Assembly (NCBI GenBank): GCA_013327885.1
Contig: JABUMY010000024.1
Coordinates: 1 to 43,558 of the forward strand
Direction: 5' to 3'
Origin: Flavisolibacter longurius
GTDB taxonomy: Bacteria; Bacteroidota; Bacteroidia; Chitinophagales; Chitinophagaceae
Length of the DNA stretch: 43,558 bases
Positions within the stretch are counted from its first letter, which is position 1. Each line of letters begins with the position of its first letter. Shown piece after piece: positions 22,108 to 23,480 of the stretch. The translations under genes and the position numbers were made by a program. Under the pieces are notes generated by a model. It ran no database searches. It worked only from the letters and a program-made list of their open reading frames with translations, and was not told the origin of the DNA.

Positions 22108-22249
22108 TATTCCATCAGCTCCTTTTCAAACATTGTGCATAAAGAAACCATTCTAATAAGGTGCGAAAGTTGTTTTTGTCATTCCCAAACGTTTTTTATT
22201 TCTTCAGGACCACAAAACGCCGCTGTTATTCTTGGGTTCTTTCACCCGA

Positions 22250-22429
22250 CTAATGAACGACATGTACTTTGGCTGCAAAGGCGCTTTTGGCAAATTCGAT
22301 TTCTTTTTCTTCCAGTTTGCCGGTAACCTGCAATCGCTCTTTGTTCAGGTGACAATGCTTGTTATCGATCATATCCAGAAATAATTCGACCTCGTATATG
22401 TCCTCAAACTCCAGGGTAATTGTCTTCAT
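22250..22429 (-). CDS. small acidic soluble protein (59 aa)
   Basis: The minus-strand ATG at 22429 opens a 59-aa frame to TAG at 22250-22252. The protein is acidic at its N-terminus (MKTITLEFEDIYEVE) and has alternating polar/hydrophobic stretches that suggest a beta-alpha-alpha fold with a coiled segment (KLEEKEIEFAKSAF). No signal peptide, membrane helix or known domain is seen. A well-formed promoter is 25 bp upstream (22454-22488). Promoter placement and amino-acid composition argue that it is real. Function is unknown. Confidence 0.62.
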   Translation of the reverse strand: MKTITLEFEDIYEVELFLDMIDNKHCHLNKERLQVTGKLEEKEIEFAKSAFAAKVHVVH

Positions 22430-22453
22430 GGCATGTAACTAAAACGGCGGAAG

Positions 22454-22488
22454 CAAAAATAAGACCTGCAACGGATAACCGTTACAAA
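22454..22488 (-). promoter_or_regulatory. promoter TTTG-N23-TATTTTTG
   Basis: Minus strand: TTTG (22488-22485), 23-bp spacer, perfect TATTTTTG (22461-22454). It reads into the 59-aa gene. Confidence 0.6.
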
Positions 22489-22665
22489 GGCGCCAGTGTC
22501 CACCCGGTATTCAAATTTTGCCATTTTTAGGGGAATGATATTAGCGCCTTAGGTTACAGTTTGTGCTAGTGAAATGCCATGCCATCGCAAATGAAAAGTG
22601 AAACGGGTTGCACTCAATTTTCTGTGTGTAGTAATGACGGGATAAATGGCCTGCCAAAGCAATCG

Positions 22666-22711
22666 CCATCGGGGCTCAAGTGGGAGTTGACGGGTTCGAA
22701 CCGCCGACCCT
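22666..22711. repeat. 46-bp direct repeat, copy A (tRNA-Val 3' end)
   Basis: Identical except for one base to 23005-23050. It contains the T arm, the 3' acceptor strand and 16 bp of downstream flank of tRNA-Val(TAC), in the same orientation, 339 bp from the intact copy. Confidence 0.9.
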
Positions 22712-22981
22712 TCCGCCGGAAGCGGAATGCGCTGAACCGGCGATCTGGTCTTGGTTCCTGGTTTTGCTTTTCCAGCCATTTATTTCCCTTTCTCTTGCAT
22801 AAGCCAAGCTTTTATTTTCAGCTTCTTCTTTGTAAACGATTTGCCAGTCTGCAGTTTTGCCGGTAAAGCCTTTGTGATTTGTGTTGTGTTTTCGCATGCG
22901 TGAGGAAGGATCATCACCCGTGTGGCCTATATAATATTACTTGAGTGAAGAAGATTAGAGTATATAGACATGGAAAGCCAT
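22676..22981 (-). pseudogene. GIY-YIG nuclease, broken by two in-frame TAA codons
   Basis: Reading from the ATG at 22981 in one frame gives a 101-codon GIY-YIG endonuclease. It starts MAFHVYIL, then stop (codon 9, 22955-22957), SSSLK, stop (codon 15, 22937-22939), then YYIGHTGDDPSSRMRKH. The GIY-like VYIL, the YYIG motif, the conserved arginine region (SSRMRKH) and the catalytic-type glutamate (AREREINGWKS) are all still there. Only the two nonsense codons spoil it, so decay looks recent. The last 20 or so residues (GGRVGGSNPSTPT) are encoded by tRNA-derived sequence. The gene starts 7 bp past the tRNA-Val terminator stem. A truncated product from the internal Met at 22897 is conceivable but lacks the GIY and YIG strands. 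Confidence 0.85.
22681..22740 (-). pseudogene. truncated tRNA copy (T arm, 3' acceptor, altered anticodon arm)
   Basis: Minus-strand sequence homologous to the 3' two-thirds of tRNA-Val. The T arm and 3' acceptor strand AACTCCCA are identical, the anticodon arm is changed (stem TTCCG/CGGAA, loop CTTCCGG, nominal anticodon TCC), and part of the D loop (GGTTCA) remains. The 5' acceptor strand and half of the D stem are missing, so it cannot fold as a working tRNA. It doubles as the 3' coding end of the GIY-YIG pseudogene. Confidence 0.8.
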
Positions 22982-22991
22982 AAAATAAAAA

Positions 22992-23015
22992 ATCCCCGAT
23001 GTTTCCATCGGGGAT
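22992..23015 (-). terminator. intrinsic terminator of tRNA-Val
   Basis: The stem ATCCCCGATG/CATCGGGGAT (10 bp) with a 4-nt loop is followed on the minus strand by a T-rich run (22991-22982). It starts 4 bp after the tRNA 3' end. Confidence 0.92.
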
Positions 23016-23050
23016 CAAGTGGGAGTTGACGGGTTCGAACCGCCGACCCT
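23005..23050. repeat. 46-bp direct repeat, copy B (inside intact tRNA-Val and flank)
   Basis: Partner of the repeat at 22666-22711. It covers one arm of the terminator stem, the tRNA 3' end and the T arm. The two copies bracket the GIY-YIG pseudogene. Confidence 0.9.
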
Positions 23051-23094
23051 CTGCTTGTAAGGCAGATGCTCTGAACCAGCTGAGCTAAACTCCC
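23020..23094 (-). tRNA. tRNA-Val (anticodon TAC)
   Basis: A complete cloverleaf can be drawn on the minus strand: acceptor GGGAGTT/AACTCCC with discriminator A, D stem GCTC/GAGC, anticodon stem TCTGC/GCAGA with loop CTTACAA (anticodon TAC, reads GTA), and T arm GGCGG-TTCGAAC-CCGTC with one G-U pair. The CCA is not encoded. A TATTTTTG -7 element lies 35 bp upstream and a strong terminator follows. The 3' end has been duplicated downstream around a nuclease pseudogene. Confidence 0.96.
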
Positions 23095-23128
23095 TTTTTT
23101 AAGAACTGTCCCGTTTTCGTTGGGAGTG

Positions 23129-23136
23129 CAAAAATA
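23129..23136 (-). promoter_or_regulatory. -7 promoter element TATTTTTG for tRNA-Val
   Basis: A perfect TAnnTTTG on the minus strand, 34 bp before the tRNA 5' end. The -33 region is a T-rich stretch without a clear TTG. Confidence 0.6.
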
Positions 23137-23189
23137 AGGGGATGCGGTTAATTGAAAAAAATATTTTTCGGCTTTTCTGTAAAAAAATT

Positions 23190-23480
23190 TTAGTTCAGTT
23201 GTACCGCAGGCAGGCGGTATAACTGTCCATCCCAAACCATCAATTCATTTACCGCAATGCGAAAATGTTTGTAAAAAGGCGAAGGCTGCAAATACGCTTT
23301 TGCTTCGCGTTTTGTTTTGGCATTGATGGTAATCCACACAGTCTGTATTTCCATGCTGACGACGTAATGCTCGATCACCTGTTCATCTATCAGGTGATTG
23401 ATGTGCTGCCGGTGTTCCTGCACCAGGTCCATCATTTCTTCGTTCCAGTTAAACGTAGCAGTTATCAGGTATTTTTTCAT
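23190..23480 (-). CDS. small protein with ferredoxin-like (muconolactone isomerase-like) look
   Basis: A 96-aa soluble protein starting MKKYLITATF. The frame extends 14 codons further upstream into mtaB, but the ATG at 23480 is preferred because it leaves a 5-bp gap after the mtaB stop and gives a normal beta-strand start. The pattern (KKYLITATF, then HVVSMEIQTVWITINAKTKREAKAYL-like strands and helices, ending FRIAVNELM) resembles small alpha/beta dimeric-barrel proteins such as muconolactone isomerase-like or YciI-like ones, but no catalytic residue is evident. It probably shares the mtaB transcript. Confidence 0.72.
   Translation of the reverse strand: MKKYLITATFNWNEEMMDLVQEHRQHINHLIDEQVIEHYVVSMEIQTVWITINAKTKREAKAYLQPSPFYKHFRIAVNELMVWDGQLYRLPAVQLN

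Follow-up and report, generated by a model that had tools for sequence, protein, structure and literature searches.

A dead GIY-YIG nuclease unit beside tRNA-Val in Flavisolibacter longurius: one copy of a large family of candidate tRNA-targeted homing elements

The window, by which we mean the whole stretch of 43,558 nucleotides analysed here (positions 1 to 43,558 of contig JABUMY010000024.1, assembly GCA_013327885.1), carries an intact tRNA-Val(TAC) gene followed on the same strand by a broken GIY-YIG nuclease gene and a partial copy of the tRNA (Table 1). The 3' part of the tRNA and its flank form a direct repeat around the nuclease gene, with one mismatch, as the earlier note had claimed: the two copies are identical at 45 of 46 bases and are spaced 339 bases apart. 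That note divided the repeat into 30 bases of tRNA and 16 of flank, a split that becomes 32 and 14 when the tRNA end set by ARAGORN is used. Among the 12 families of direct repeats listed between 21500 and 24500, this one is the longest, and a chance origin was ruled out by the repeat analysis together with the data on the family presented below. The gene between the copies had been described as a GIY-YIG endonuclease. The family assignment stands (PF01541, 47.1 bits, E 1.5e-11), but the frame is broken by two in-frame TAA codons, for which reason this copy is regarded as a dead pseudogene. It starts at 22981, just past the terminator-like hairpin, and its last codons fall within repeat copy 2.

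Table 1. Features of the tRNA-Val locus in the window
Feature	Position	Strand	Basis
Intact tRNA-Val(TAC) gene, presumed target	23019..23094	(-)	ARAGORN; Rfam tRNA 70.5 bits, 23094-23020
Direct repeat copy 1, 3' part of the intact tRNA plus flank	23005..23050	(-)	
Direct repeat copy 2	22666..22711	(-)	
Terminator-like hairpin plus six-T run, between tRNA and nuclease gene	22987..23013	(-)	by eye
GIY-YIG nuclease pseudogene, 102 codons including stop	22676..22981	(-)	
Pseudo-tRNA-Val fragment: D-loop remnant, hairpin, T arm, 3' acceptor strand	22680..22741	(-)	
Hairpin TTCCGC-TTCCG-GCGGAA in the anticodon-arm position of the fragment	22711..22727	(-)	

The tRNA likeness of repeat copy 2 extends past its 46 bases, over the whole of the fragment listed in Table 1, to which the Rfam tRNA model gives 21.3 bits (22681-22741), below the cut-off of 29 bits. 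The D-loop remnant reads GGTTCAGCGCAT. Judged from its sequence, the fragment is a pseudo-tRNA in which a hairpin has replaced the anticodon arm. A group I intron was rejected as an explanation of the locus, the tRNA being whole and no Rfam intron family being found up to E 1 in 22200-23400. Outside the unit, a palindrome-like sequence, TACCGCAGGCAGGCGGTA, lies at 23203-23220, at the end of a 110-residue frame; it is spanned by the Rfam cyano-S1 model, below the cut-off (24.3 vs 39.9 bits).

A second unit is present in the same genome, where a profile search yielded four matches to PF01541. Two of these belong to frames 609 and 461 residues long, which by their length we take to be UvrC and a Cho-like protein, and a third is the window's own. 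The remaining one marks the second unit (L003 1386-1807, G000:C9), which consists of tRNA-Pro(ggg), a 91-residue GIY-YIG frame and a tRNA-Pro 3' end, with a repeat spacing of 342 and the hairpin TCCCGC-TGAG-GCGGGA ahead of the T arm. Another tRNA gene, tRNA-Pro(cgg), follows this unit.

Association with tRNA genes is found throughout the family and beyond. A PF01541 search covered 147 genomes of the family, and the best 150 matches of a longer list were taken, of which 146, from 74 genomes, were examined and four were left out. The earlier note had proposed a search for GIY-YIG genes near tRNA genes in related genomes, and such genes were found: 76 of the 146 examined matches, in 49 genomes, adjoin a tRNA gene, i.e., have one within 300 bases before or 450 bases after the nuclease gene, for a chance expectation of about 1% (an estimate from at most ~60 tRNA genes per 4-Mb genome). 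All of the 88 tRNAs that adjoin the examined matches are on the strand of the nuclease gene, and they are of 11 kinds (Leu, Ala, Arg, Lys, Met, Asp, Pro, Glu, Val, Phe and Ser). At E 0.001, a level at which members of a related clade that is not tRNA-bound (see below) can be included, a profile of 70 tRNA-bound proteins (A1) matched 200 genomes in a sample of 296 from the phylum; its matches reach 20 in one genome, at most 20 candidates per genome having been scored. Among 48 loci of other Bacteroidota, namely the 28 best new A1 loci and the next 20 in the list, 39 adjoin a tRNA gene and none does so on the opposite strand; Asn, Gly and Cys tRNAs are additions to the kinds seen in the family. 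Similarly, a profile of the tRNA-Val type gave 80 named loci, of which 61 adjoin a tRNA gene (tRNA-Val(tac) in 44 cases), never on the opposite strand; three of the 80 carry names from other phyla (Limnohabitans, Bifidobacterium and Paraglaciecola MAGs) and are presumed to be misnamed bins. The window unit is thus one dead copy of a large GIY-YIG family, and the proposal of a minimal tRNA-bound unit that lacks an integrase is supported, with many more such units than the one from which it was drawn. That the locus could be an old tandem pair of tRNA genes with a chance neighbour gene, as a second tRNA near some loci such as L003 might suggest, is in effect already refuted by the rate of association, the strand rule, the related clade that serves as a control and the patchy occupation of the site within the genus (see below).

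The units come in two mirror-image layouts. In the 3' type, to which the window unit belongs, the tRNA is followed by the gene and then by a fragment that reaches the tRNA 3' end, often including the terminator; in the 5' type, a fragment that starts from base 1 of the tRNA is followed by the gene and then by the intact tRNA. Among the 69 fragments, the 3' type is clear in 42 and the 5' type in nine (L054, L060, L072, L086, L096, L097, L099, L105 and L121), and 18 match neither layout cleanly, in some cases because the fragment itself is called a tRNA. When the nearest tRNA is used for the assignment, the counts are 56 for the 3' type and 20 for the 5' type, some of the latter, as well as several 5' calls among the 80 named loci, being due to ARAGORN naming the fragment a tRNA. 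Both layouts are held within a single nuclease clade, for instance those at Asp and Leu tRNAs. The 5' type had no place in the earlier note, nor had the hairpin in the fragment, which is perhaps the key part of the element.

How closely the fragment resembles the tRNA of its own host was determined for 26 tRNA-Val loci, after eight of the 34 loci tried had been dropped for want of a recognisable fragment. The last 27 tRNA bases of the fragment were 97.7% identical to the tRNA of their own locus and 76.7% identical to those of the other loci, a comparison in which the own value is favoured by the choice of the fragment for its likeness to the tRNA of its locus. Own identity exceeded the mean of the other loci in 26 of 26 cases and was complete in 19 of them. 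In this set the outer half of the fragment therefore matches the tRNA of the host itself and does not look like a fixed tail moved between hosts, which goes against the earlier idea that the element carries its own tRNA tail to restore its target. It reads better as target sequence that may have been duplicated, or left behind, at insertion, and it could be a recipient half that remained after repair, the product of a local duplication or the outcome of conversion after arrival.

Elements with a tyrosine integrase usually leave a tRNA 3' end behind as a direct repeat, and the present units resemble the islands formed by these in that a tRNA gene serves as the site, an end of the tRNA is repeated and the tRNA stays whole. 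In contrast with such islands, the window unit has no integrase and measures ~340 bases, and the elements also use 5' ends and carry a hairpin in the fragment. It is very improbable that the window unit is the relic of an integrase-borne tRNA island reduced to one gene between its attachment sites: the direct repeat of the tRNA 3' end is what such a relic would show, but the same compact unit recurs at at least 11 kinds of tRNA, the 339-base unit of the window has room for one gene only, and neither the 5' type nor the hairpin has a place in such a history.

The fragment usually bears a hairpin in the D, anticodon or T arm. Thus, the palindrome CCTGCCTGCCGGCAGGCAGG is found in the anticodon loop of a Leu(caa) fragment, in the D loop of an Arg(tct) fragment and in the T loop of another Leu(caa) fragment, and in other fragments the anticodon stem is replaced by TCCCGA..TCGGGA or TCCGCC..GGCGGA. 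A perfect stem of at least 6 was detected at the breakpoint of 57 out of 65 fragments, about eight of which look by eye like terminators or mispairs, against 140 of 1300 random windows; outside the family such a stem is present at 23 of 34 phylum loci. The pairing is also conserved by compensation: in a set of tRNA-Val and tRNA-Arg fragments, four of the eight pairs change on both sides, a covariation score reached by none of 500 shuffles. Over these 24 fragments, a set preselected for the hairpin (33 loci tried, 26 with a T arm, 23 used plus L110, which is apparently from the same genome as L183), 94.8% of the hairpin cells pair, and the innermost pair fails in 10 fragments.

The conservation of both the hairpin and the T arm as structures, together with the common strand of gene, tRNA and fragment, might be expected of a system acting at the RNA level, in which the protein would act on the tRNA and the hairpin-bearing pseudo-tRNA would be a decoy or antidote RNA, in the manner of a toxin-antitoxin pair. 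This we consider improbable. Part of the tRNA is usually absent from the fragments, and the mirror layouts, the arrays and the empty sites would be left without explanation; in addition, to our knowledge the known GIY-YIG enzymes act on DNA. An assignment as a defence gene was rejected, the PADLOC matches, seen in three of six proteins, being weak and limited to short parts of larger models.

The nuclease itself is small and conserved. Six columns are invariant in 70 sequences (Y16, G18, R26, H30, E62 and K66), and the family thus keeps the GIY-YIG active-site residues, as a free-standing homing endonuclease does, whereas the window copy is broken. Among eight proteins scanned with Pfam, PF01541 was above the cut-off in seven, the eighth being the C-terminal piece of the window's protein; T5orf172 was matched in four, in two of them above the cut-off, and no HUH family was found in these eight. 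TIGR01453, the model of group I intron endonucleases, gave four of the eight proteins 18.0-21.9 bits, below its cut-off of 56.05. From the start of the domain to the stop codon there are 73-97 residues in 59 of the 60 frames listed and 116 in the remaining one, a length that leaves no room for the separate C-terminal DNA-binding region found in classic homing enzymes and absent from the present proteins. The closest solved sequences are the UPF0213 proteins 1zg2 and 1ywl, followed by SLX1 entries; we know of no UPF0213 or SLX1 protein that is a tRNA-bound mobile element. The protein is under constraint, its function being kept: dN was lower than dS in all of the 12 usable pairs among 63 close pairs (median ratio 0.12), many of these 12 being members of one array and hence not independent.

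A tree of 148 GIY-YIG domains, built on 73 columns by a short search, splits into groups of 43 and 105 rows with an SH-aLRT support of 96. None of the 43 rows of the first clade is at a tRNA gene; in the second, 88 of 103 are, tandem members counted, and the 105 rows of this clade are made up of these 88, of 15 for which no tRNA was found and of two from the window's genome. For six of the 15, a contig end is less than 200 bases away, and another, L150, is a member of an array whose tRNA is farther upstream. Several loci of the non-tRNA clade (L005, L007, L009, L011 and L015) lie among repeats such as CTTCGACAGGCTCAG and are possibly another palindrome-linked group.

Within the tRNA-bound clade, nuclease lineage and target go together. 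The tRNA species requires 32 changes on the nuclease tree, for a shuffled mean of 65, the arm 18 as against 32 (with arm labels assigned from the breakpoint by a rule, some of them doubtful) and the hairpin class 20 as against 37, values that none of 200 shuffles reached in any of the three cases; the layout also clusters, one of 200 shuffles being as low. A group with a TGCTGAC-like hairpin in the T arm occupies Leu, Asp, Lys and Val tRNAs, which is expected of an enzyme that reads the arm in which tRNAs are most alike, and the Ala group, the Leu group and the main Met group each keep to one amino acid. This combination would match what a target site at the position of the hairpin predicts. 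The group with the TCCCGA hairpin in the anticodon arm occurs on Val, Arg and Met tRNAs, so that a rule of one tRNA for the anticodon arm is a loose one. The host family requires 15 changes on the same tree, for 21.9 when shuffled, and the host order 19, for 27.9, in a test that is poorly resolved with 73 columns. From this tree, inheritance appears to be at least partly vertical, and much of it looks vertical.

Palindromes like those of the fragments are dispersed in some genomes. The pattern TCCCGAN{2,7}TCGGGA has 72 dispersed matches in a genome of the same genus (G147), for none with a reversed-pattern control; most of these, among the matches listed, are TCCCGATAGCTATCGGGA, and they resemble the hairpin of tRNA-Val elements elsewhere. 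Likewise, genome G071 has 34 forward matches of CCTGCCGGCAGGCAGG, for none with the reversed pattern. In genomes G059 and G053, the matches to the CCTGCC type are confined to the elements. A genome-wide palindrome family in the window's own genome was rejected, since a genome-wide pattern search gave no match there for the TCCCGA and CCTGCC types and 11 sites for TCCGCNNNNNGCGGA, as against 5 for its control.

REP palindromes are associated with RAYT enzymes of the HUH (Y1) type, and the present elements resemble them in the tie between a short palindrome and a small nuclease gene and perhaps in the dispersal of palindromes, seen in some genomes but not in that of the window. They differ in that the enzyme is of the GIY-YIG rather than the HUH type and in that the palindrome is found inside a tRNA copy. 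It is conceivable, albeit rather unlikely in our view, that the elements are a GIY-YIG counterpart of REP/RAYT, in which a structure-specific nuclease would duplicate its target: acting on hairpins or cruciforms as do its SLX1 and UPF0213 relatives, it would have the palindrome as the mobile end and folding tRNA arms as landing sites. The ranking of the solved relatives, with two UPF0213 proteins ahead of SLX1, is in line with this, as are the paired changes that preserve the shape of the hairpin, the insertions, which are placed in arms or loops of the copied tRNA, the dispersed palindromes of G147 and G071 and the match of the fragment with the tRNA of its own host. On the other hand, the window's genome has neither of the two palindrome patterns, those of the CCTGCC type in G059 and G053 occur at the elements alone, and the clades track the tRNA species, which argues for targeting at the level of sequence.

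The tRNA-Val site is occupied in a patchy manner within the genus. In nine genomes of the genus, the site is empty in five, holds broken remains in two, a dead unit in one and an array of three units in one, a tally of present states in which gains and losses are not told apart. The comparison of orthologous tRNA-Val loci suggested by the earlier note thus yielded five empty sites and four with remains or units, and neither of the findings that it had named as contrary to its claim, a nuclease at this site in all relatives or the remnant of a tandem tRNA pair with no empty sites, was made. At the tRNA-Val gene that adjoins the neighbour gene of the window locus, a profile search up to E 1 gave no match in the five empty genomes (G151, G154, G152, G159 and G004). 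In G147, the nuclease gene is broken by TGA and TAG and there is no fragment, and in G157 an 18-residue stub is left (E 0.002).

The three units of Flavisolibacter ginsengisoli DSM 18119 (L201) follow tRNA-Val at a spacing of 345 and comprise two whole frames of 87 residues and a truncated one. Their fragments bear the hairpin TTCCGC-TTAAA-GGCGGAA, like that of the window, and a second palindrome is present in the T arm, besides that of the anticodon arm, at L201 1920-1965 and 2265-2310. Ahead of the tRNA-Val gene, at L201 1380-1536, lie two tandem copies of an 81-base pseudo-tRNA-Val in which TTCCGC-TTCAA-GGCGGAA replaces the anticodon arm and which have no nuclease gene; these are possible non-autonomous units. 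The neighbour gene that marks the window locus is 40 kb away in F. ginsengisoli, and the context of the locus therefore differs in that species. Tandem rows are also visible among the profile matches of the family and the phylum, and two arrays that were measured contain 5.0 copies of 315 bases with 99% matches and 5.3 copies of 450 bases with 98%.

A viral vehicle was looked for and rejected: among viral contigs, 50 pattern matches with the tRNA-Val type profile included no relative, the 12 matches obtained in phages with a tRNA-Met type query were weak and all below 40% identity, and a tRNA-Val type query gave one weak match in plasmids (37.7%). The nearest known system that was found is SegB of T-even phages. 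According to the available portions of two papers, SegB is encoded by a free-standing GIY-YIG gene beside tRNA genes and cuts the DNA of the tRNA region, where there is microhomology between the 5' end of a tRNA and the 3' end of the nuclease gene and where tandem repeats of tRNA and nuclease gene arise; by the same account, the sites cut by free-standing phage enzymes are hundreds or thousands of bases away from the genes of these enzymes (PMC13096335; PMC2988022). As far as those portions go, the present elements share with SegB and intronless homing the free-standing GIY-YIG gene beside a tRNA and the tandem tRNA-nuclease repeats. They differ from the phage-borne SegB in that they are chromosomal, very small, each bound to a single tRNA gene, of two mirror layouts and phylum-wide, and in that they have a hairpin-bearing pseudo-tRNA, a feature absent from the same SegB descriptions. 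No description of chromosomal tRNA-bound GIY-YIG elements was found among the titles and opening lines of abstracts listed by a full-text literature search that covered few subscription articles and no preprints. In the available part of a 2006 survey of GIY-YIG proteins, tRNA is mentioned three times, in connection with a methyltransferase fusion and in references (PMC1564403).

The reading that we favour, with a probability of about 0.6, is that the window unit is a decayed example of a free-standing homing element that is chromosomal, targets tRNA genes and does without an integrase. A working element would span ~300-450 bases and comprise a GIY-YIG gene of ~80-90 codons, an intact tRNA and a partial tRNA copy on the far side of the gene. 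The nuclease would cut a cognate tRNA gene that is still unoccupied, in the anticodon, D or T arm depending on the clade, and an occupied tRNA would serve as donor for the repair of the break. One of the two halves produced by the cut would pair with the intact tRNA of the donor and copy across the nuclease gene, and the other half of the recipient tRNA would stay behind and form the outer part, one half, of the fragment. Priming of the repair by the 5' half would place the gene after the tRNA, as in the 3' type of the window, and priming by the 3' half would place it before the tRNA, as in the 5' type. The hairpin, located at the presumed cut position, would make sure that the fragment is no longer a target, and the repeats would then permit tandem expansion and loss. 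If so, mobility and transfer would proceed through the nuclease, the element would probably be selfish, and tRNA genes would best be read as both its target and its refuge, following a logic close to that of phage SegB.

This homing model accounts for both layouts, for the fact that the clear fragments are complete on their outer side, for the position of the hairpin and for the match between clade and target. Several points sit less well with it. Among them are the TCCCGA group on three kinds of tRNA, the 18 fragments outside either layout, the partly vertical inheritance, the outcome of the vehicle search in viral contigs, phages and plasmids, the short proteins with no space for a DNA-binding region and the 15 rows of the tRNA-bound clade for which no tRNA was found. 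The intact tRNA of an occupied locus keeps the presumed target, and its escape from cutting is not explained. Furthermore, homing from divergent donors should leave more mismatches between fragment and tRNA than are seen, and with the two identical in 19 of 26 loci one has to suppose that the donors were close relatives, that conversion came later or that the duplication was local. More tentatively, and on balance doubtful as a whole, these might be phylum-wide ultra-small elements in which a lone GIY-YIG gene and a hairpin-bearing pseudo-tRNA form the complete mobile unit, each lineage being tuned to one tRNA arm and the pseudo-tRNA both blocking re-cutting and templating repair, with non-autonomous repeats such as the 81-base copies of F. 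ginsengisoli and dispersed palindromes riding along.

If the homing model is right, tRNA genes across the phylum would house some of the smallest self-spreading elements known, which would work without an integrase, a transposase or an intron. It would account for the abundance of small GIY-YIG genes in these genomes, some of which end inside tRNA sequence, and nature would have supplied a collection of small nucleases that are each fitted to one tRNA site. It would also open a simple test of how a selfish element may use an essential gene without the death of its host.
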